In this document: positions 1,039 to 55,384 of the stretch, piece after piece | How positions within the stretch are numbered: the first letter of the stretch is position 1 | How the letters are laid out: each line of letters starts with the position of its first letter | Source: Agapetus fuscipes | Lineage: Eukaryota > Arthropoda > Insecta > Trichoptera > Glossosomatidae | Assembly: GCA_951799405.1 (NCBI GenBank) | Contig: OX637343.1 | Location: forward strand, 14,486,524 to 14,550,523 | DNA: 64,000 bases | Reading direction: 5' to 3' | Program-made: the position numbers and the translations under genes | Notes under the pieces: model-generated | Seen by the model: the letters and a program-made list of their open reading frames with translations, nothing else | The model's database searches: none | Told to the model about the DNA's origin: nothing

Positions 1039-2733
1039 TTAGGTAGGTTCAAGACTTAACGAAATCGTATTTTTGTCGTCGTAATGTTGACTTTGGACCC
1101 TATGTGCAGTGGTCAGGAAAAATGACGTTCCACGGAATTTTCCCCTTAGGGTTTTGCCCGTCATTGCTGGCTGGTGTGGGGGGGGGTGCTTTCCTCTTGG
1201 CGGCCGGCATGGGCGCCTTTCCTTGGCTGGGGGCACCGCTTTGCGTCCCCGGGCGGCCACCGCTCCTAGGCCCCGCTTGCTCGCCGGCGTCAAAGGATCA
1301 GAATCCTTGGTCGTCGGAGCCGCTCTCCTGCTCGGAAGCGAAGTTCTCACTCTCGCTCTCGTCCTCTGACTCGCTGAGTGGCTTCCTGCCGCGCCATGCT
1401 TGGGTCGTCCCTTCTGCTTGCTCTGCTTGGCTGAGCCCCTGCGGGCGGGGGCGCGGCGCCTGCGGGAGGGAGCGCCCCCCTCCCTCACTGACGGGTCAAA
1501 GTCAGAGTCCGCCTCCTGTCCGGAGCCACTCGGGTTGTACGAGCCATCTGAATCCCCTAAATCATCCCTGCTGACTTTGGGTCCCCGCACTTTGATTTCC
1601 GGATCTGTTTCATACTCCTCGTTAGAGTAACCTCTCTTGACAATAGCAGCAGCGGACCTTCTGGGCCTGCCTCCCGTGGCCTCGCCGCGGTCAGTCACCG
1701 GCCTCTCCTTCATCAGCCCCCTGGCGTGCGAGGAGGCCTGCTTTGGCAGCAGCAGGAAGCCCACCACCCTGCTGGCCAGCTCCGTGGGCGCGCCCCTCTT
1801 GTCCAAGCCCAGCTTCTCGCACAGCGTCCGCAGCTGCTTGGGCTCCAGCTTCTGCACCTCCTCCAGCTTGGCCTTGTGCTCAGGCGTGTCCTTCTCAAAC
1901 TCGTAGCCCTTGAACTTCTTTTTGTTGCGCTTGATGAGGTTCGTGCGGCACAACTGATTGTACAGGAACTTGAGGTCCTCCATCTTGAACCTGGAGATGG
2001 CCACCTCCACGTCGGGGATGTGGTCGATGGGGATGCCCCGGCCCGCGGGCACGGGCACCGGCGGCTCCACGGCCTTCTTCTTCTTGGGAGCCTCCTCCAC
2101 GGCCTCCTCCGCCTTCTTCTTGGGCGCGGGCTTCTTCTTCACACTGTTGGCCTTCTTGGCCTTGCCCTTCTTGTCCTTGGCGTCCTCATCCTCCTCCTTG
2201 GCGTCCGTCTCCTCCTTCGCATCCTTGTCAGCCTTCACCTCGGCCGAGTCACTCTTGCCGTTTTCAGCCGACTTGACATCATCTTTGTCATTATTGCTGT
2301 CAGCTGAGTCCTCAGCCTTGAGCTGGCCGTTGTTTTTGGCCTTCAGGTCTCCCTTCCCCAACTTCTGAGATGACTCATCCTCAGTTGACATATCGGCCTT
2401 TTTGTCATCCTGATTATCACTTAATTTTACACTATCAGTGTCCACCGACATTTTTAAGGCTAGGTTTTTAGCCATCTCCTCCTTCCAACCAGCTAGGTCT
2501 TCCCTCAAGCTCTTGAAGTTGGCAGCCATCTTTGTTTTAAACTCTTCCACGGCTCGCTCGCGGTCCCCTCCAGACGCCATGACAAAATATGCCGGGTCTT
2601 CGCCTGACTGTTCCAAGGCCTCCATGAGGCGTGCCTGTAAGGCCGCCTTCCCTCCTGAGGTCTCCAGGTCCCTCTCCAGAAGCTCATTCTTAAGCTCATA
2701 GACTTTGAGGTCCTTGATGTTCACCTTAGCCAT
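1039..2733 (-). CDS. SAP + DEK-domain protein, retrotransposon-borne copy 1
   Basis: Intronless frame read from the ATG at 2731-2733 (MAKVNIKDLK); eight more in-frame codons lie upstream from an ATG at 2757, but the start at 2733 is the one shared with copy 2. Residues about 5-40 fit a SAP DNA-binding domain (ELKNELLERDLETSGGK). An Asp/Glu/Lys-rich linker covers about 100-225. Residues about 229-330 match the DEK core (start IDHIPDVEVAISRFK, then GYEFEKDTPEHK and the second SAP-like fold ending VVGFLLLPK). A basic, Ser/Arg-rich tail follows. DEK family proteins bind DNA and chromatin in the nucleus; that role is inferred here. Homology to copy 2 ends near 1107, so the last ~22 codons come from unrelated flanking DNA. 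The frame is otherwise open, with indels relative to copy 2 only in multiples of three. The coding part is markedly GC-rich in an AT-rich setting, as expected of a processed gene. Confidence 0.8.
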   Translation of the reverse strand: MAKVNIKDLKVYELKNELLERDLETSGGKAALQARLMEALEQSGEDPAYFVMASGGDRERAVEEFKTKMAANFKSLREDLAGWKEEMAKNLALKMSVDTDSVKLSDNQDDKKADMSTEDESSQKLGKGDLKAKNNGQLKAEDSADSNNDKDDVKSAENGKSDSAEVKADKDAKEETDAKEEDEDAKDKKGKAKKANSVKKKPAPKKKAEEAVEEAPKKKKAVEPPVPVPAGRGIPIDHIPDVEVAISRFKMEDLKFLYNQLCRTNLIKRNKKKFKGYEFEKDTPEHKAKLEEVQKLEPKQLRTLCEKLGLDKRGAPTELASRVVGFLLLPKQASSHARGLMKERPVTDRGEATGGRPRRSAAAIVKRGYSNEEYETDPEIKVRGPKVSRDDLGDSDGSYNPSGSGQEADSDFDPSVREGGAPSRRRRAPARRGSAKQSKQKGRPKHGAAGSHSASQRTRARVRTSLPSRRAAPTTKDSDPLTPASKRGLGAVAARGRKAVPPAKERRPCRPPRGKHPPPHQPAMTGKTLRGKFRGTSFFLTTAHRVQSQHYDDKNTISLSLEPT

Positions 2734-3157
2734 TTTTTTTATTTTAACAAACTTCAAAACAAAAATATTTGCAAATTTATTTAATACGGGTTATGAGTTT
2801 TATATATAAAGTTATTTTAAATACGTACTTTAGCAAAATAATAATTTATCTAATTATACTGACGGTAGGTAGGTACCGCCTTTTAATATTTATTTTTAAA
2901 TTTCAAATAATGATATTAGATAATGATTATTTACTTTGCTTCGTCAGATCGGCTAATGAGTATTTACTAATACTAACACAATATTATTAACACGTTATCT
3001 ATCCACACTTCAATCAAATTTTTAGCGGGTAACCACACGATCGTTTTTAATTCAAGTTTAATCAGTTTTATTTAAAACTTTTTTTTTTATTATGTTGTCC
3101 AGATATATTTTTCAATACTTTCAAGCACAGTTTTTACTTGGTACTTGGTTTTAAACT

Positions 3158-3171
3158 TCACACCGACACCA
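3158..3171 (-). other. Primer-binding site candidate of copy 1
   Basis: The minus strand reads TGGTGTCGGTGTGA one base after the CA end of the 5' LTR, identical to copy 2. A TGG start next to the LTR is the usual complement of a tRNA CCA end. I could not assign the tRNA. Confidence 0.6.
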
Positions 3172-3172
3172 C

Positions 3173-3626
3173 TGTTACGTTTTTCCTGGGTTCTTTTAAT
3201 TAAAACACAAGTTCAACACAAGTTAGCCGTACAGTTTATTTACACAGACTTTCTTACAATAGATTTATTATAACAGACTTATTCTAACAGATTTATTTTA
3301 ACACACTTATTTATTTCGCACAGATTACATTTATTTTACACCATATTGGTCGCCCTAGTAACTAGATATTCCACTGTGTGAGTGCTTCGAAAGACTGACT
3401 CCCTTCAGCCGAATGTCACCCTTCTTATAGCGGAACCTAGGGGCCATTCTAGCCTGCCCTAGAAACTTCCACTACCACAGTTGTATAGACGATTCTGGAC
3501 ATATTTATTTCATGAAGAGTCCATTTCCTACCTACACACACACCTTACAATTACAATCGTCTGGGCCAGAACATTCTCTCAAAACACACGTACACCAATA
3601 AACATCTACCAGTGTATTTCGTTACA
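3173..3626 (-). repeat. 5' LTR of DEK element copy 1
   Basis: 454 bp, starting TGTAACG and ending CGTAACA on the minus strand. It matches the copy 2 LTRs with scattered substitutions, for example in the leader next to the TATA-like CTATAAG. It ends directly against a different repeat (about 3650-3838). Confidence 0.85.
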
Positions 3627-19361: not shown

Positions 19362-19795
19362 TTTTTTTTTTTTTTTTTAAGAAATCCTGTGCGGGAGACT
19401 CTCTAGATTCTAAAGACTCTAGGGGTCTATGACACTTGTTGTAGTGCCGCAGAGGTGTACGAGCTTGGTCGTCGCTACAAAGCGCCAATACTCAAGCAAG
19501 ACCCAGTTGCTGTAAGGCTGGATGGACCTTTGGTGACCGGTCATTGGTATAGGCTTATGAATTTTTCAATCCAGCGAAGAGCACATTTGAAATATAAATG
19601 GTATATTTTTGTGCTCCGCCGGGATCCGAATCCACAACCTTTCATTTACGAGTCCGAAGTGTTGCCACTACGGACCGGTCCAAGATGCCAACGACACGCG
19701 GTGTACCTGAGCGGTCACCCATCCATGTACTGTCAGCGCCCAATGTTGTTTAACTTCGGTGATCTATGGGAACCGGTGCTTTCAACATGGTAACG
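19362..19795 (-). repeat. Composite 5S rRNA / tRNA SINE
   Basis: Reading the minus strand: 19795-19685 resembles 5S rRNA (GATCACCGAAGTTAAACAAC, GGGCGCTGACAGTAC, GGATGGGTGACCGCTCAGG, ACACCGCGTGTCGTTGGC), followed by the tRNA-like head of SINE family 1 and its body to the A tail at 19360-19378. The 5S internal control region words are recognisable. This is probably the full-length form of the family; most other copies lack the 5S part. Confidence 0.8.
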
Positions 19796-19954
19796 TCGTT
19801 GACAATATAAAACTAAACACATAAAAAACATTTCACAAATTAATAATTACATTTTAAAATCAATTTTAAGCATTATAATCTATTTGAAATAAAACAGTTC
19901 GAATTCACTTATTCAATTTATTTATTGCCTTAATGTATGTGAAGGAAAAAGAGG

Positions 19955-28154: not shown

Positions 28155-31100
28155 CGTCGCTGTTCTGACTCAACCTCGTATCTACAAAAACAGTTTTTTA
28201 CAGGAAACAAAAAAAACTATTTTTTTCCACCGTTTCAACTTTATTTAAAGTTTTTAATTTTTTTTAAATTACTGTAGTTTATTTAAAACTCAATAATTAA
28301 GTTAATAATTACCAAATACTGTGGAACATTTAAGTTTTTATAATTTTAGTGAGATACGAGTTTGCAGAATGTATTATTTGCTTTGAGTGATTACTTACGA
28401 GGTTGCTGCATTGAAATTATATAAGTCTTAGATATTTTTAAAAACATTTATTAGTGACCAAGGTATAAAAGATTTCACATAAGAATTTGAAAAATAAAAA
28501 AGTAAAAAAAAATGGTTTTAATATAACAATAAATTTGTTCAATAAAAGAAATCTTGGGTTAAAGTTGATCACCCTTAATCATTTGAATGAACCAAATTAT
28601 CATAAAATGTATGATAATCTCTGTGTATAACATATTTGAGGGATTGTAGATCTCTGAATTTTTTCAGTTTAATTGGTAGTGGCCCCGATAACAAGGGCTT
28701 TACTAATACTTGTTCAGGAACATGGCTTTGACGAGGTGAGAGACATTGCCAATCTTCTTTAAATGACAATTTTAATTGAAGACCGTCAGCAAGACTGTAT
28801 TTTATAGCTCGTATGTCCACAACACAAGGCTCTTCTACTCTAGCTCCAGGTCTTAGAGATTTGTAATAGGTTATATTGGAATAATCTTTAAAGAATTTAT
28901 GGTCAACATACTTGACCTGATACGGCTTATTGATCCTAGATTCCTTTATAATTTGGACATGCAAAATTGGATGGTGCATGTAATTCTTTGTTTTTTTTTT
29001 GCGGGTTTCAATGGTAGCGTGTAAAGAATCGCACTCCATTTGTGTGTGTCCTCTCACGAGGTATTTTTGTAAGGAAGTGACATCATTCCTTAAGGAATAA
29101 TGTAAAAGAGCATTAGACAGTATAATATTACGATTCTGCGCTGCACAACCATCACTAAAAAATACTATCGGTATATTTTTGTTAGTAATATGGTTCTCAA
29201 CGTGATCTAGTATACACGAAGAGAATACGTTGGCATCCATTCCTCCTTCTCCTTCATGCCAAACATAGCAGGTGACGTTTGATGTTACAACATCATAAAT
29301 TGTAAACTGGTGACAAGCCAGTTTCTGTTTTAAATATAAAGATCCTGCAGGTAAGGATGGTACAAGCTGTACAGCTTGAACATCGACGGTAAACATGTTC
29401 TGAAGTCCTGCAATCGCCATTTCCTTGTCCCTTCGTTTTTCATCTCTGGCCAAGTTCTTTTCTGCAATGTGTTGTGCAAAAGCTTCAGAAGCAACAAATC
29501 CTAATGTATGTGAAAAGCATGTGTCGCACTGGTCCTTACGTGGCTGAAATATTCCAAGTTGCATGGCATCGACTTGTTTCCAGAATAAATTGTATCCGCC
29601 TTTCTCCTCAGAAGGTTTATCACTATCAGAAAAATACTTTTCAAATGCTCGGTATACATCTTAAACTGATGTATACGTCATCTCTAAATATTGCTTCGAA
29701 GAGCTCTCTCTGCAATAGTGAGAAGGCAGTTTTGGCAGCTCACTTAAAAAGTATTTGATATGCTCTACCTTCGAAGCCTTCTTTATATTTATGCGGTCAA
29801 CATTTTTAACTTCCGAAATTATACCATGACTGTTTCCTTTTTTTACCCAGTTAAGAACAGTCCACTCTCCTAACGACAAAGTAGACAAAAATATTTGTTT
29901 GCAGACAGGCACTCATGCATTTTAATTTTTTAAATAGTATTTGAAGGTGCTTTCCCGTCGTGATAGTACCTTGTTAGTTTTTCGTTGAACTGGAACTTTT
30001 TCTACCAGTGCGTTTACATATGCTTTTCTTTGTGGCCACGTCATGAACTCCCAGAAGGAATTAAAAATACTCTGCCTTTCACTGTTACTGATAACATCAC
30101 ACTGCCTTAAATGTTTACTACGAGTGCATTTCAAACTATCGCACCTGGGTTTTAAACAACGAGCTTGACGGACTATTTCATTACAAGGTTTTCCTCTGGC
30201 TGCCTTTTTCCTTTCAATACTCTCATACTCATGTCCAATTTCTCTGGCTTTTATTAATTTATTTCGCTTCCAGGCAGCAGGTTTTCCTAAACCTTTTCGT
30301 GCTCGTCTCTTCTCAACTTCAACGTCTTTGCGAGTTTCAATCAATAAACCTGACGCTTCGTCCAGGTAATAAGTTACTGTGCTTTCACCAATGTCGGCAG
30401 TTTCACAGAAATCTTTATCCAAAATTATTTGTCTATTCATCATCAACTCCCGTTCATCAGCTTGTCTTGACGAAGATGCTTGATTCATTAGGGAAAGGCA
30501 CTCAATGGAATCTGGATTATGTGGGATACTCGAATTGTTCAATGCTAGTTGCAATAAACGACTACTTCTTGAATTGTTTCGTTTCATTTTCTGGAGGAAA
30601 AAAAAAGTTCATGGTTAAATTGATTACATGTAGTATAAGTTAAGCGTATATTTTTAAAATATTTCAATTAAAATAATCAAGTTCTCTCAAATTTGCAATT
30701 GAATTTTGATAATATGTGAGGTTAAGTACTGGCTATAATATAGTGAGTTTTTTTACAGAATGCTCTTTAAATATTATGATTAAAACTAAAACAACTTACT
30801 CTATACAATGTATATTCACTATTTAAATAACTTTCACTATGTTTAACGTCAAATTACTATTATAAACAAACAAAATCAACAGTGGATGTTTACAAGACTC
30901 GACCTGTCAGTGTAGATACGAGAATGCTGCGCTAACTTCAGAGTGCTTCAGACACTATTCACACGACAAAACAGATCTCAAACTCGTATCTTGTGATACG
31001 AGTTTGCTGCATTCGACAAACCAGATACGAGTTTGAGTTTTATCAACATAACTAATAAATAATATTTTTAAGGAAGATATGTGTTTGTGCATTAAATGCG

Positions 31101-48577: not shown

Positions 48578-51447
48578 GTTCCTTGACTTATAGGTTGTTA
48601 TGCGGCTGACCACCCATAATATAAAAATTGGTTCACTTTGCCAACGTCACCCCTGTTTCAGGGAAGGACGGCAAGAGTTGCAAGGCTTACATGGGCCTGA
48701 AATATGCAGTGACCACTATCTCTTATGCGCTAAAATAATGATTGGAGAAGTAAGAAAGAAGAAACGTAAGAAGAAAGTAAGAAAGCCAAGAATAAAAGTA
48801 GAAAGTCTGAGTGATGAAAACGTGAAAGTGAAGTATAAATCAGAAATACAAAAAAAGTTAAGTGTGAATGAACTTGAAAAGAATGTGAATGAAAAAGATA
48901 TTGAAAGCATGTGGAAGGATATGAAAGAAAGAATGATTGAATGTGCTCGAAAAGTATGTGGAGAAACGAAAGGTGGAAGATTAAAAGGGGATGCCTGGTG
49001 GAATGCTAAAGTAAAAGAGGCTGTGAAAGTAAAGAAGGAATGTTACAAAAAGTGGCTGAACGACAGGAATGATAGAAAGCTAGAAGATGAATATAAGATA
49101 GCCAAGCGAATGGCGAAGAATGTAGTTTATGAAAGCAAAGCGAATGAACAGAGAAAGATTGATGAAAAAATGAACAGAAGTTTCACCGACAGTAGGAAGG
49201 AATTCTGGAGATGGGTCGGTGCCATTAGGAATAAAGATTCTGCATTGACCACCCCAGGAATCAAAAGTGCTGTCGGTGAGATGGTATGGGAGAATGATGA
49301 AGTATGTAAGAGATGGAAAGAATATTTTGAAGGGATTTTTGGTCGGGGCGAAAGAAATTTGTTTAGAAAAATGACAGAAGAGAATGAATTTAGGATTTTG
49401 AAAGAGGAAATAAAAGTATCTATTGAATGTTTGAAGAATGGAAAGTCTGCTGGGTTTGATGGAATAAATGGTGAAATGTTGAAAGCAGGAGGTGAATGCG
49501 TGATAGATTGGATGTACGAATTATGTAAGCTTTGTGTGAATGCAGGAGTAGTACCGATGGATTGGAGGAAGGCAGTCATTGTTCCCATTTACAAAGGTAA
49601 AGGGGACAAAAAAGACTGTCAGAACTTCAGACCAATCAGTCTACTCAGTATACCAGGAAAAGTCTTCTGTAAGGTGATTATAAAAAATGTGATTCTGACT
49701 ACTAGTGAAAGGATTTCCGATATACAGTCCGGCTTTATGGCCGGTAGAGGCTGTGTTGATCAGATTTTTACTCTACGACAACTTGTTGAAAAACAATTGT
49801 CGGTGAGGCGGAAGCTGTTCACGGCCTTTGTAGATCTGGAAAAGGCTTTTGACTCAGTAGACAGAGGTATGTTATGGGATGTTTTGAAAGCATACGGAGT
49901 GAATGGGGCTCTCCTAGGTGCGGTGCATGCAAACTATGAAAATAGTAAGGCATGTGTTCGTATTGATGGTGAGTATAGTGAGTGGTTTGAAGTTTATAAG
50001 GGTGTGAGGCAAGGATGTGTGATGAGTCCATGGCTATTTAACATAGTCATGGACAAGTGTGTCAGAGATGCTCGACTTAATGATTGTGGATTGACGATAG
50101 GAGAGAGCAAAGTGAGTGTTTTACTGTATGCAGATGATGCAGTTCTTGTTTCTGATTCAGCAGTAGAATTGCAAACAATGCTCTCTAGATTGAATGAAGC
50201 TTTGTTAGGTAACCATCTGAAGTTGAATGCAAGTAAGACGAAAGTATTGATTTTTGAAAGAGATGATGAAAGTATGAATTATGAATTTAAAATTAATGGA
50301 ATGAATGTTGATGTCGTAAATGAGTTTGTATACCTGGGAAGTATGTTTGAAAAAGATGGAAGAATGACCGGTGAATTTGAAAGAAGAGTAATGAAGGGCA
50401 GGTGTGTACTGGGTGCCACAGCTTGTATCGCCAAAAATCAAAACATATCTAAAAATGCTCGATTGGCGGTACGCAGTGGCATACTTTTACCCACCTTGAT
50501 GTATGGAAGCGAGGCCTGGACGGTGAATGAAAGTGAAATTAGTAAAGTCCATACTGTTGAAATGGACTTTCTAAGAAGTATGATTGGGAAAAAACGGAGT
50601 GACAGGGTGAGGAATGATTTTGTAAGAGAAGAATGTGGTGCAAGAGAAAGTGTGAAAGTGAAGATTAAAAGAAGTTTGTTAAGATGGTTTGGGCATATGG
50701 AGAGAATGAATGAGGAAAGACTGACGAAGAAAGTATATGTTGGTAGAATAGATGGATGTCGTGGTAGAGGAAGACCGAGAAAGGTATGGATGGACCAAAT
50801 ATCCGAAATTGCGAATGAATGGAATATCCAGAGTCATAATAAAAGAAGAGCTTGTATGAAGAAGGTTATGACTCTGGAGGAAATGAAAGAAGTATGTAAG
50901 GATAGAAAGAAATGGCGGTTGATCTGTGATGTTGGCGGCTGGGGTTTGTTAAAGTAAAATTGGTTTTGTGATTTGGTTTTTTATGTCAATGTATATATTG
51001 TTATTTTATTGATTTTAAAAATGTAATTTGTCATGTATGTTCCTTGACTTATAGGTTGTTATGCGGCTGACCACCCATACTGTAAAAAAAATTGGTTCAC
51101 TTTGCCAATGTCACCCCTGTTTCAGGGAAGGACGGCAAGAGTTGCAAGGCTTATGTTCATTTGAGATTGGGTTTTTATATTGTAGGTCCACATGCGGCAT
51201 GTGTTAGCGCGAAATTATACATATCTGCTTGTGGGAATGCATTTAATATAAATCTTAAATGATATATATCTTTGCAGCTTAGATTAGATTAGATTAGATT
51301 AGATGTGCATTTGAGATTGGGTTTTTATATTGTAGGTCCACATGCGGCATGTGTTAGCGCGAAATTATACATATCTGCTTGTGGGAATGCATTTAGTATA
51401 AATCTTAATTGATATATATCTTTGCAGCTTAGATTAGATTAGATTAG
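48578..51447 (+). mobile_element. Longest LINE copy, subfamily A, 5'-truncated and chimeric
   Basis: A 3'-UTR head (48578-48689) is joined at GGCTTA to the end of the endonuclease coding region, followed by the RT gene to 50957, a complete 3' UTR, a GATTA array (about 51278-51304) and a ~145-bp duplicate of the tail to 51447. Confidence 0.85.
48691..50957 (+). CDS. Non-LTR retrotransposon reverse transcriptase (RTE-like), endonuclease deleted
   Basis: Continuous frame of about 755 codons ending WGLLK* at 50957. It begins with the last motif of an AP-type endonuclease (CSDHYLLC), so nearly all of that domain is missing. The reverse transcriptase follows: NGKSAGFDGINGEML, the D412 block FVDLEKAFDSVD, GVRQGCVMSPWLFN, and the catalytic Y510-A-D512-D513 (numbers from the ATG at 48600), then LNASKTKVL. 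The C-terminus has LRWFGHMERM and GRGRPRKVWMDQ. The protein would reverse-transcribe its own RNA at a nicked target. Upstream codons 48600-48690 come from the fused 3'-UTR and are not genuine. Without the endonuclease this copy is probably not autonomous, but the RT core has no visible lesion. Clade assignment (RTE-like) rests on tail type and C-terminal motifs. Confidence 0.85.
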
Positions 51448-51868
51448 ATAAAGAGTTTACAAAGAGAATGTCAAAGGTAAGCGTGGAAAAAAAAGACCGA
51501 GGAATGAATGGATTGATCAAATGACTGTATTCTGCAGAGTGAGAAGAGAGAAGGGCATGCATGAAGAGAGTGATGAATATCGGAAAAAATATCCAAGGAC
51601 AGAACAAAGTGGAGACGCATCTGCGGAGATGCTGGCCACTTGGTGGCTGAATACAAGTAAAAGAGCATAGGCTAGTTCTTCTTCCAAGAAAAAACCTAAA
51701 CTGCGTATAAACAAAGATCTCACAAATTGAAGTAAAATTTTGGTATCTATCAACGTTGGACGCGCACCAAAAATGTTTTCAACAACTGAATCTAATTTAC
51801 TCGTATTGCCAAATTATTCCTTCGGCTAGTTCTAATTAACAAACATTTTGCAACCTCATTATATATAT
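51448..51868 (+). pseudogene. LINE coding remnant and unassigned DNA
   Basis: 51465-51640 keeps a decayed RT C-terminus (plus-strand GKRGKKRPRNEWIDQM). The remainder to the LTR boundary is AT-rich and ends in the ATATAT run next to the LTR. Confidence 0.55.
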
Positions 51869-52324
51869 TGTTACGTTTTTCCTTAGGGTTCTTTAAATTA
51901 AAACACAAGTTTAACACAAGTTAGCCATACAGTTTATTTACACAGACTTTCTTACAATAGATTTATTTTAACAGACTTATTCTAACAGATTTATTTTAAC
52001 ACACTTATTTATTTCGTACAGATTACATTTATTTTACACCATATTGGTCGCCCTAGCAACTAGATATTCCTCTGTGTGAGTGCTCCGAAAGACTGACTCC
52101 CTTCAGCCGAATGTCGCCCTTCTTATAGCGGAACCTAGGGGCCATTCTAGCCTGCCCTAGAAAGTTCCACTACCACAGTTGTATAGACGATTCTGGACAT
52201 ATTTATTTCATGAAGAGTCCATTTCCTACCTACATACACACCTTACAATTACAATCGTCTGGGCCAGAACATTCTCTCAAAACACACGTACACCAATAAA
52301 CATCTACCAGTGTATTTCGTTACA
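51869..52324 (-). repeat. 3' LTR of DEK element copy 2
   Basis: 456 bp, near-identical to 54393-54847. Minus strand starts TGTAACGAAATACACTGG. Confidence 0.9.
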
Positions 52325-54040
52325 TTATCCCCCCCTTAGGCTGTTCCGCCCCGGAACAGTCTTTTCTTTAAGAAGGTACGGGCAGTTTGACCCACAGTTG
52401 CATCTAGTGGTCAGGAAAAATGACGTTCCACGGAATTTTCCCCTTAGGGTTTTGCCCGTCATTGCTGGCTGGTGTGGGGGGGGGTGCTTTCCTCTTGGCG
52501 GCCGGCATGGGCACCTTTCCTTGGTTGGGGGCGCCGCCTTGCGTCCCCGGTCGGCCACCGCTCCTCGGCTCCGCTTGCTCGCCGGCTCCTGCGTCAAAGG
52601 ATCAGAATCCTTGGTCGTCGGAGCCGCTCTCCTGCTCGGAAACGGAGTTCTCACTCTCGGTCTCGTCATCTGACTCGCTGGGTTGCTTCCTGCCGCGCCA
52701 TGCTTGGGTCGTCCCTTCTGCTTGCTCTGCTTGGCTGAGCCCCTGCGGGCGGGGGCGCGGCGCCTGCGGGAGGGAGCGCCCCCCTCCCCCACTGACGGGT
52801 CAAAGTCAGAGTCCGCCTCCTGTCCGGAGCCACTCGGGTTGAACGAGCCATCTGAATCCCCTAATTCATCCCTGCTGACTTTGGGTCCCCGCACTTTGGT
52901 TTCCGGATCTGTTTCATACTCCTCGTTAGAGTAATCTCTCTTGACAATAGCAGCAGCGGACCTTCTGGGCCTGCCTCCCGTGGCCTCGCCGCGGTCAGTC
53001 ACCGGCCTCTCCTTCATCAGCCCCCTGGCGTGCGAGGAGGCCTGCTTTGGCAGCAACAGGAAGCCCACCACCCTGCTGGCCAGCTCCGTGGGCGCGCCCC
53101 TCTTGTCCAAGCCTAGCTTCTCGCACAGCGTCCGCAGCTGCTTGGGCTCCAGCTTCTGCACCTCCTCCAGCTTGGCCTTGTGCTCAGGCGTGTCCTTCTC
53201 AAACTCGTAGCCCTTGAACTTCTTTTTGTTGCGCTTGATCTTGATGAGGTTCGTGCGGCACAATTGATTGTACAGGAACTTGAGGTCCTCCATCTTGAAC
53301 CTGGAGATGGCCACCTCCACGTCGGGGATGTGGTCGATGGGGATGCCCCGGCCCGCGGGCACGGGCACCGGCGGCTCCACGGCCTTCTTCTTCTTGGGCG
53401 CCTCCTCCACGGCCTCCTCCGCCTTCTTCTTGGGCGCGGGCTTCTTCTTCACACTGTTGGCCTTCTTGGCCTTCTTCTTGTCCTTGGCGTCCTCATCCTC
53501 CTCCTTGGCGTCCGTCTCCTCCTTTGCATCCTTGTCAGCCTTCACCTCGGCCGAGTCACTCTTGCCGTTTTCAGCCGACTTGACATCATCTTTTTCATCT
53601 TTGCTGTCAGCTGCGTCCTCAGCCTTGAGCTGGCCGTTGTTTTTGGCCTTCAGGTCTCCCTTCCCCAACTTCTGAGACGACTCATCCTCAGTTGACATAT
53701 CGGCCTTTTTGTCATCCTGATTATCACTTAATTTTACACTATCAGTGTCCACCGACATTTTTAAGGCTAGGTTTTTAGCCCTCTCCTCCTTCCAACCAGC
53801 TAGGTCTTCCCTCAAGCTCTTGAAGTTGGCAGCCATCTTTGTTTTAAACTCTTCCACGGCTCGCTCGCGGTCCCCTCCAGACGCCATGACAAAATATGCC
53901 GGGTCTTCGCCTGACTGTTCCAAGGCCTCCATGAGGCGTGCTTGTAAGGCCGCCTTCCCTCCTGAGGTCTCCAGGTCCCTCTCCAGAAGCTCATTCTTAA
54001 GCTCATAGGCTTTGAGGTCCTTGATGTTCACCTTAGCCAT
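52325..54040 (-). CDS. SAP + DEK-domain protein borne by LTR element, copy 2
   Basis: Intronless 571-codon frame from ATG at 54038-54040 to TAA at 52325-52327, which abuts the 3' LTR. Residues 5-40: SAP domain (LKAYELKNELLERDLETSGG). 41-95: helical segment with WKEE. 100-225: acidic and Lys-rich linker (EEDEDAKDKKK, PAPKKKAEEA). 229-332: DEK homology (IPIDHIPDVEVAISRF, then KGYEFEKDTPEHK and LCEKLGLDKRGAPTELASRV). 355-450: basic Ser/Arg-rich tail. About 520-571: shared with the retrotransposon 3' end, reading through the polypurine tract (SLRGG*). Vertebrate DEK is about 375 residues, so this protein is longer at both ends. DEK proteins bind and supercoil DNA and act in chromatin; the function here is inferred. 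The N-terminal SAP part may come from the parental gag, making a gag-host fusion. Compared with copy 1 it has in-frame insertions near residues 268 (IK) and about 475 (QE) and a one-codon deletion near 190. Confidence 0.85.
   Translation of the reverse strand: MAKVNIKDLKAYELKNELLERDLETSGGKAALQARLMEALEQSGEDPAYFVMASGGDRERAVEEFKTKMAANFKSLREDLAGWKEERAKNLALKMSVDTDSVKLSDNQDDKKADMSTEDESSQKLGKGDLKAKNNGQLKAEDAADSKDEKDDVKSAENGKSDSAEVKADKDAKEETDAKEEDEDAKDKKKAKKANSVKKKPAPKKKAEEAVEEAPKKKKAVEPPVPVPAGRGIPIDHIPDVEVAISRFKMEDLKFLYNQLCRTNLIKIKRNKKKFKGYEFEKDTPEHKAKLEEVQKLEPKQLRTLCEKLGLDKRGAPTELASRVVGFLLLPKQASSHARGLMKERPVTDRGEATGGRPRRSAAAIVKRDYSNEEYETDPETKVRGPKVSRDELGDSDGSFNPSGSGQEADSDFDPSVGEGGAPSRRRRAPARRGSAKQSKQKGRPKHGAAGSNPASQMTRPRVRTPFPSRRAAPTTKDSDPLTQEPASKRSRGAVADRGRKAAPPTKERCPCRPPRGKHPPPHQPAMTGKTLRGKFRGTSFFLTTRCNCGSNCPYLLKEKTVPGRNSLRGG
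52328..52337 (-). other. Polypurine tract
   Basis: Minus strand AAGGGGGGGA lies three bases before the TG of the 3' LTR, the expected place for plus-strand priming. The stop codon of the DEK frame lies between tract and LTR. Confidence 0.8.
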
Positions 54041-54377
54041 TTTTTTTATTTTAACAAAAATTTAAATTTACTTCAAAACAAATTATTTTACAAAAAAAAT
54101 ATTTTTAAATTTCAAATAATGATATTAGATAATGATTATTTACTTTGCTTCGTCAGATCGGCTAGCTTTACTAACACTAGCACAATATTATTAACACGTT
54201 ATCTATGCACACTTCAATCAAATTTTTAGCGGGTAACCACACGATCGTTTTTAATTCAAGTTTAATCAGTTTTATTTAAAACTTTTTTTTTTTTATTCAT
54301 TAGTTTTTATTATGTTGTCCAGAAATATTTTTCAATAGTCTTAAGCACAGATTTCTTTTGGTACTTGGTTTTAAATC

Positions 54378-54391
54378 TCACACCGACACCA
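54378..54391 (-). other. Primer-binding site candidate of copy 2
   Basis: Minus strand TGGTGTCGGTGTGA, one base inside the 5' LTR, identical in copy 1 although surrounding bases differ. The tRNA is not identified. Confidence 0.65.
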
Positions 54392-54392
54392 T

Positions 54393-54847
54393 TGTTACGT
54401 TTTTCCTGGGTTCTTTTAAATTAAAACACAAGTTTAACACAAGTTAGCCATACAGTTTATTTACACAGACTTTCTTACAATAGATTTATTTTAACAGACT
54501 TATTCTAACAGATTTATTTTAACACACTTATTTATTTCGTACAGATTACATTTATTTTACACCATATTGGTCGCCCTAGCAACTAGATATTCCTCTGTGT
54601 GAGTGCTCCGAAAGACTGACTCCCTTCAGCCGAATGTCGCCCTTCTTATAGCGGAACCTAGGGGCCATTCTAGCCTGCCCTAGAAAGTTCCACTACCACA
54701 GTTGTATAGACGATTCTGGACATATTTATTTCATGAAGAGTCCATTTCCTACCTACATACACACCTTACAATTACAATCGTCTGGGCCAGAACATTCTCT
54801 CAAAACACACGTACACCAATAAACATCTACCAGTGTATTTCGTTACA
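54393..54847 (-). repeat. 5' LTR of DEK element copy 2
   Basis: 455 bp, minus strand TGTAACG ... CGTAACA. It contains the TATA-like site, several AATAAA words (for example complement of 54524-54534) and a run of related CTGTTA(A)AATAA units between 54470 and 54530. Confidence 0.9.
54614..54650 (-). promoter_or_regulatory. LTR promoter: TATA and initiator
   Basis: The minus strand has CTATAAGAAGG (TATA core at 54645-54650) and GGGAGTCAGTC with the insect initiator TCAGTC at 54614-54619, about 30 bp downstream. The same pair is in the 3' LTR. It would drive the DEK transcript and sets the U3/R border near 54617. Confidence 0.65.
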
Positions 54848-55384
54848 ATATATTATACCTTTAGGCTTGCAATTATTGTGTAAAATTTTTTTGAAGAAAA
54901 TATGAGTATACCGGTCATTAGTCCAGTGGTACAGAATTATTCTCTTATCGAAAGGCAAGCGGTTCATTTCCAGTAGATGTCGAAATAATGAAATGTTCTT
55001 GATTGGATTTTGATGCTAATGAAAACAAAATCAAGTTTTTTTTGGTTAAGAAGCCTGTGCGGGAGACTCCCTAGATTCAAGAGACTCTAGGAGTCTATGG
55101 CATAGTGCCGCAGAGGTGTTGGTGATGTGGCAGTTATTCTTATCCGGTTGCAGGGCCGTTAGCTGCGCAGTGCTGTGGTGTTTGTTGCGTTGCTTTGTTT
55201 TGAGACACTTAGAGACTGATAGTGGAGTAAAAGAGATTTAAAAGTGGAGTAAAAGAGATTCATCCATCCCTACAGCATATTTAGCACTCAACTGGTTTAA
55301 GGGGTTTTTAAATGTCAAATTTTTTTTTTACATATAATTAAAAAACATAATGCTCCTAAGACTACAGAAAAAAATATCGGTTGG
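54848..55384. other. Mostly unassigned; SINE family 1 3' end
   Basis: 55045-55122 carries GCCTGTGCGGGAGACTCCCT and CATAGTGCCGCAGAGGTGTT, the 3' end of SINE family 1 in minus orientation. The rest shows nothing recognisable. Confidence 0.5.

Follow-up and report, generated by a model that had tools for sequence, protein, structure and literature searches.

Introduction

Acutely transforming retroviruses of the delta-gag-onc type carry a processed host gene fused to an N-terminal Gag remnant; their replicative genes are replaced and a helper is needed. Here, we describe a long terminal repeat (LTR) retrotransposon of the trichopteran Agapetus fuscipes in which the host chromatin gene DEK stands, in one frame, between a Gag start and a Pol end. 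The element, hereafter the DEK element, occupies positions 51869-54847 of the analysed stretch of contig OX637343.1 (the window, 64,000 nucleotides). It is very probably an LTR retrotransposon of Ty3/gypsy type that is non-autonomous and acquired a host gene by transduction.

Bs1 of maize is an LTR element into which parts of host genes have been transduced, and it has a hybrid frame; the parts come from three genes and none has a full-length open reading frame (ORF) (PMC13317346). In metazoans, LTR-mediated retroposition involves a switch of template between the RNA of an LTR element and a host mRNA, at places where the two are similar over a short stretch (Tan et al. 2016, cited in PMC5408686). 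PbTRIM, a terminal-repeat retrotransposon in miniature (TRIM) of the harvester ant, has a non-coding internal domain (PMC3532108). A survey of lepidopteran retrocopies attributes them mainly to non-LTR elements, and the word DEK is absent from its main text (PMC11675541), and a further paper treats sORF2 of insect elements (PMC11952523). Human DEK has been described as essential for heterochromatin integrity and as an enhancer of HP1 binding (PMC10753498). No earlier report of a DEK-carrying retrotransposon was found by title or abstract start among the literature matches listed, in a search whose coverage excluded most subscription journals.

Architecture of the element

The element is complete and lies on the minus strand, with the right-hand LTR as the 5′ LTR. 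Two LTRs of about 455 bp with TG...CA ends had been noted from the letters alone. LTR comparison gave a 5′ LTR of 455 bp (54393..54847) and a 3′ LTR of 456 bp (51869..52324), with no substitution between them (0 mismatches and 3 gap columns over 454 aligned bases). A TATA-like string is present in the LTR. Flank inspection showed the target-site duplication ATAT on the left (51865..51868) and on the right (54848..54851), which sits in AT-rich flanks and is weak evidence on its own.

The predicted primer-binding site (PBS) and polypurine tract (PPT) were present at the expected LTR edges. The PBS candidate TGGTGTCGGTGTGA (54378..54391) lies one base inside the 5′ LTR, and the PPT AAGGGGGGG, followed by ATAA, adjoins the 3′ LTR (52325..52337). 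Among the loci examined, the PPT AAGGGGGGG with ATAA and the LTR start matched at 23 places; a TGGTGTC-type sequence immediately inside the LTR was also found at 23 places, by a pattern that itself required TGGTGTC. ARAGORN found no transfer RNA (tRNA) in the window, and the PBS remains a candidate. Young copies differ in this candidate at one or two positions after TGGTGTC, with A, C, T or nothing before GGTGTG, and locus L015 has CAGTGTG. This pattern of variation looks as if the primer tRNA had rewritten the PBS.

Between the PBS and the ORF lies a 5′ untranslated leader (54041..54377). The single frame of 571 codons (54040-52328), read in the original prediction as ending at the 3′ LTR, does so: its stop codon TAA (52325-52327) doubles as part of the ATAA after the PPT and abuts the LTR (whole ORF 52325..54040). 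The element has no reverse transcriptase (RT) or integrase of its own; a Gag stub and a Pol tail are all that it keeps. By class, it is best placed as a non-autonomous derivative of Ty3/gypsy, and its frame of 571 codons sets it apart from TRIM elements, which have no coding capacity.

The fusion protein

Translation together with domain and structure matches divided the protein into three parts, with Gag at residues 1-94, host DEK at about residues 95-524 and the Pol C-terminus last. The Gag N-terminus (53759..54040) comprises a SAP domain (residues 6-41, Pfam E 8.2e-8) and a shortened coiled coil, and its last two of 94 codons come from the DEK 5′ leader. Residues 1-94 matched the Gag N-terminus of a gypsy family in the same genome, the likely partner described below (68% over 98 aligned positions, E 4e-37). 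The SAP domain, which had been taken as a part of DEK, thus lies outside the DEK homology and belongs to Gag. Loci L018 and L028 retain a longer coiled coil, with 153 and 144 residues ahead of the DEK start, respectively, which is why the Gag part of the window copy is regarded as shortened.

The DEK core, originally placed at residues 229-332, was confirmed by human DEK structures, which matched residues 172-347 (E 4.6e-13). Pfam DEK models gave no match to the fusion protein, so the core was recognised via these solved structures, and NCBIfam gave weak matches alone, far below the cut-off. A database search with the fusion protein returned seven hits from 7990 scored candidates, all with PF08766 and none with SAP among the listed domains; the five best relatives were from moths and butterflies (Scirpophaga, Phthorimaea, Pieris, Eumeta and Danaus). 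In the C-terminal third, part of the acidic host stretch is read in a different frame in the element, giving an arginine-rich sequence that is still open. The Pol C-terminal tail (52326..52443) is gypsy-derived, and its DNA is 74% identical to the pol end of the partner (120 aligned positions). Internal duplications in frame were seen in two copies, of the DEK core in L018 (frame about 687 codons) and of the C-terminal part in L032 (about 666 codons).

The parent gene and the captured segment

The genome searched was the 618-Mb assembly of 148 contigs. A search with DEK had been proposed to find an intron-containing parent. The parent was found, although a whole-DEK query missed it and a DEK_C query alone revealed it. 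The lepidopteran DEK protein P0002, used in full, did not reveal the parent among the best 68 of 1041 candidates scored; 64 of these 68 rows were without stops, and one best match, L033, is an element copy. DEK_C, a domain absent from the element, had a single match in the genome (C11:946574-946732), and the surrounding sequence is the parent DEK gene with introns, on the same contig as the element window.

Nine parent exons aligned in order to the element, eight blocks with 91.9-96.0% identity and one with 74.7% and a long gap, and most exon edges are flanked by GT/AG. This bears out the proposal that an LTR element captured a processed host gene. The captured DEK mRNA segment (52469..53765) begins at most 7 nucleotides upstream of the DEK start codon and stops where host exon 9 ends, and the DEK_C exon is missing. 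Loss of gag and pol had also been proposed, which holds for most of both genes; the N-terminal Gag stub and the C-terminal Pol stub remain, fused in frame to DEK. As read from the DNA, the element carries an intron-less host DEK fused in frame to Gag, with the parent in the same genome.

Over about 1280-1300 bases, identity to the spliced parent exons was 95.0% for L012, 94.7% for the window copy and 94.6% for L018. Of the internal length changes relative to these exons, five of eight in L012 and six of nine in the window copy were divisible by three; what remains is a difference of 136 bases where a joint is doubtful, together with a +1/−1 pair. Twenty sequences gave synonymous divergence (dS) of 0.099-0.122 from the parent, nonsynonymous divergence (dN) of 0.032-0.044 and dN/dS of 0.29-0.43. 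These values come from exon-wise alignments, include the host branch, and were obtained from a set with the truncated L027 and with L018 and L032, which carry the internal duplications.

Copy number, transposition and frame integrity

The Gag-DEK junction string matched 301 times in the genome (150 forward, 151 reverse) and the DEK-tail junction string 302 times (152 and 150), each with at most 2 mismatches, and the reversed-pattern controls for both gave 0 matches. About 300 occurrences per junction against none in the control are therefore not due to chance. Since the Gag-DEK string lies largely in the host exon too, one of its 301 matches may be the parent, and the counts take in only copies with these particular junctions. 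As both junctions are each present about 300 times, they point to a single capture that was then amplified.

The copies are spread over many contigs. The 40 best LTR matches covered the window and 28 other loci, of which 20 were analysed: one solo LTR (L022, flanks atac/atac), one hybrid (L025, with 523 fusion codons open) and 18 DEK loci. Insertions with distinct duplications had been asked for by the original prediction, and identical 4-bp flanks (ATAT, GTAT, ATAC) in different surroundings were found in 16 of 17 two-LTR copies, a set without L030-L032. LTR pairs had no mismatch in 14 of 19 cases, and the most diverged pair, that of L018, had 7 in 453.

In 16 of the 18 DEK loci, chosen by LTR likeness and including the chimeric L019 and L023, the frame is open; five of the open frames use another tail frame and are 16-32 codons shorter, while L021 and L027 are broken. 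In the genome-wide search, the best 76 of 2972 candidates had no internal stop; 75 rows were full length, and the remaining copy was split over two overlapping pieces. The window itself holds a second copy on the minus strand (about 1108..3626), which has kept its 5′ LTR (3173-3626) and the greater part of the fusion ORF; its 3′ end and 3′ LTR are missing.

A gypsy relative and its hybrids with the element

The likely partner is a gypsy family that we followed in three stretches (L034 3237-4523; L025 3-3236; L023 5168-8838). Its Gag (L034 3240-4520) contains SAP, a Retrotrans_gag domain and a CCHC knuckle. The Pol order is protease and then, in the adjoining L025, RT, RNase H and integrase, which is the Ty3/gypsy order. 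Long open pol frames were present in L023 and L025; in L023 the pol frame extends to the 3′ LTR and no env is found, so this copy lacks the gene that marks a retrovirus. A weak CCCH-like zinc finger match, below the Pfam cut-off, was seen at the Pol end of L023 just ahead of the PPT. In the capsid-nucleocapsid region, all 150 scored copies (best 150 of 1323 candidates) were full length, with 100% rounded identity and no stops. Pfam SAP was present in 23 of 48 database relatives of the partner Gag, among them proteins from Aromia moschata and Homalodisca liturata, and by the listed Pfam domains none of the 48 is a DEK fusion.

An LTR search had been expected to find an autonomous element with the same LTR. 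It found none among the best 40 of 1090 LTR candidates scored; one may exist. A DEK-type LTR alongside pol, also sought, was present at the end of the pol-bearing insertion in the hybrid L025 and in no other examined locus. That insertion spans L034 and L025: it has a gypsy 5′ LTR, gag and pol, jumps into the DEK element at pol position 3091, ends with a DEK-type 3′ LTR and is flanked by CTAT/CTAT. The second hybrid, L019, opens with 27 bases of a DEK-type LTR, switches to the end of the gypsy pol and the gypsy LTR, and goes on with the DEK PBS and gene, between GTAT/GTAT flanks. DEK elements inside gypsy copies in L023 and L027 are cases of nesting, not of hybridisation.

The two hybrid integrations suggest that both RNAs meet in one particle. 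Their structures would be expected with a shared particle and a change of template; recombination after integration is possible too. Backed by the two hybrids and by the abundance of the gypsy relative, we infer that the gypsy family mobilises the DEK element in trans.

A second captured mRNA

In L023 (110-2547), the 5′ LTR is interrupted by a copy of the vig/SERBP1 mRNA with the complete coding region and untranslated parts. The captured coding region matched Pfam HABP4_PAI-RBP1 (E 2.5e-29). The vig parent lies at C1:6885079-6886500, and the captured stretch (L029 1579-3404) aligns to it in two blocks with 99.6% identity. At both junctions, LTR and mRNA are similar over a short stretch, about TTAAAAT(A/T)AATC on the 5′ side and AAAGAA on the 3′ side. 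Because the parent coding region is intron-free, the copy is uninformative on splicing. In L023, vig is absent from the 3′ LTR, the first 11 bases of the 5′ LTR are missing and no duplication is seen in the left flank, so this copy is considered an aberrant product. Among 6 candidates, vig matched at two full-length places and one partial place in the genome (84%, two stops, C20). The 3′ untranslated part of the vig copy contains an insert of about 250 bp (L023 2050-2296) that the parent lacks; its ends are inverted, and by eye it resembles a miniature inverted-repeat transposable element. Judged from the vig copy in L023, host-gene capture is recent or continuing.

Other features of the window

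A 5S rRNA match of full model length was present at 19686-19803 on the minus strand (Rfam, 81 bits). Two adjoining long frames of 361 and 228 aa lie at 28575-30608 on the minus strand, one with a weak DUF7869 match below the cut-off.

Origin of the element and role of its protein

The origin that we favour would start from gypsy RNA and spliced DEK mRNA packaged together. The RT would switch template twice, from the pol end to DEK and then, just before the DEK start codon, to gag. DEK would thereby replace capsid, protease, RT and integrase, and one frame, Gag(SAP, coiled coil)-DEK-Pol tail, would remain up to the PPT. The gypsy family would supply the particle, RT and integrase in trans. A retained Gag start may hold a packaging signal, as in retroviral vectors. 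This model draws together the observed mosaic, the joined exons, the parent gene, the single repeated junction pair, the target duplications and the hybrids.

The same structure could in principle have come about in other ways. Segmental duplication of one locus that contained an LTR-flanked DEK retrocopy would multiply the junctions without transposition. We reject this explanation, for which no support was found, as practically impossible, since the copies have different flanks, identical 4-bp duplications in 16 of 17 cases and a distribution over many contigs. Alternatively, a long interspersed nuclear element (LINE) could have made a DEK retrocopy, and an LTR element landed around it later. 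A LINE-like frame, as judged by reading, is indeed nearby (window 48594-50957, plus strand, 787 aa open, RVT_1 E 5.7e-35). The DEK part, however, ends within the coding region and has no poly(A) tail, and it is in frame with Gag at one end and with a Pol-derived tail at the other, both junctions being repeated about 300 times. A poly(A) tail, longer duplications of variable length and absence of LTRs, as in LINE-made pseudogenes, were not observed, and this explanation is rejected as very improbable.

Several points weigh against the capture model. The DEK element differs from the partner in the LTR and in most of the leader, and the direct donor was not found; because of the dissimilar LTR, the partner gypsy is taken as a relative of the donor and not as the donor itself. 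Within each hybrid the two LTRs are unlike, where ordinary reverse transcription should equalise them, and recombination after integration may have produced this. One two-LTR copy, L011, has unlike flanks (atga/ttac). The reconstructed parent splice gives no single open frame, with doubtful joints at exons 3/4 and 7/8, and dN and dS were for this reason computed exon by exon. Copies were chosen by similarity to the window copy, which skews estimates of age and intactness towards young copies. The model is also drawn from genomic DNA. The uncorrected ratios of nonsynonymous to synonymous polymorphism (pN/pS) in 18 close copies add to this list. The Gag part gave 0.27, the DEK part 0.59 and codons 441-520 gave 1.06; the value of the tail (0.66) is distorted by frame changes. 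Selection on the Gag-DEK protein is not firmly supported, because of the DEK and 441-520 values.

The long open frame can be read in three ways. The DEK frame may be a passenger, kept open through the youth of the copies and few sources, in which case the LTR, PBS, leader and PPT alone would matter. We consider this a real possibility, somewhat short of an even chance. It agrees with the nearly identical LTR pairs, the pN/pS of 0.59-1.06 in DEK and the following codons, the length variants and internal duplications (L018, L032), the two broken loci among 18 and the older copy L033, which is split into two frames. Against it, the frame is open despite dS of about 0.11 from the parent, and dN/dS is 0.29-0.43. 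In simulations with substitutions only, the proportion of frames that stayed open fell from 55% at 0.01 changes per site to 16% at 0.03, 5% at 0.055 and 0.35% at 0.11. A long-drifted frame would thus be unlikely to stay open without selection, although the dS of about 0.11 combines the branches of element and host, and selection may target the length of the frame. The latter is itself a second reading, to which we give a rather low probability: translation up to the 3′ LTR would protect the RNA from nonsense-mediated decay, whatever the protein. It is in line with the stop codon that abuts the 3′ LTR, as the partner pol frame also does in L023, with the frame shifts in the tail of L015, L017 and L020, which stop 16-19 codons earlier, and with the part of the C-terminal third that is open in another frame than host DEK. 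The dN/dS against the parent, below 0.5, goes beyond length selection alone, though the host branch contributes. The third reading, as tentative as the second, is that Gag-DEK is a working, selected protein, made by and useful to the element. A host chromatin factor on a Gag SAP/coiled-coil scaffold might hold the RNA or cDNA of the element at chromatin, or disturb silencing. If so, the family would owe its success to the captured gene, and the same reverse-transcription machinery would keep sampling nuclear or RNA-binding factors such as vig.

Comparison with known systems

The donor gene, both junctions of its capture and about 300 amplified copies of the element are here found in one genome, which also holds hybrids with the likely helper and a second host mRNA that was captured, that of vig, at 99.6% identity to its parent. 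Such natural copies make it testable how retroelements gain cellular genes and whether a captured gene drives the success of a transposon. A transposon that carries a heterochromatin factor of its host is also relevant to the conflict of mobile DNA with silencing.

Taken as a whole, our analysis places the DEK element as a gypsy element that is non-autonomous and transducing and that has reached a high copy number in an animal genome; the transduction design itself is known. With PbTRIM it shares non-autonomy, a 4-bp target-site duplication and a presumed partner, and it differs in having a 571-codon frame. A SAP Gag is a feature that the partner has in common with other insect Ty3/gypsy elements, none of the 48 relatives being a DEK fusion by the listed Pfam domains. 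The vig copy of L023 closely fits LTR-mediated retroposition as summarised from Tan et al. 2016; the products there are host retrocopies, whereas DEK is the main content of a multiplying element family. The delta-gag-onc retroviruses are alike in the in-frame fusion of Gag and host gene and in the replaced replicative genes. In contrast to them, the DEK element is a germline retrotransposon family of about 300 copies, and its partner is without env in L023. The nearest described retrotransposon that we found is Bs1. Compared with Bs1, the DEK element takes nine exons from one gene, is present in about 300 copies and has its parent and gypsy hybrids in the same genome.

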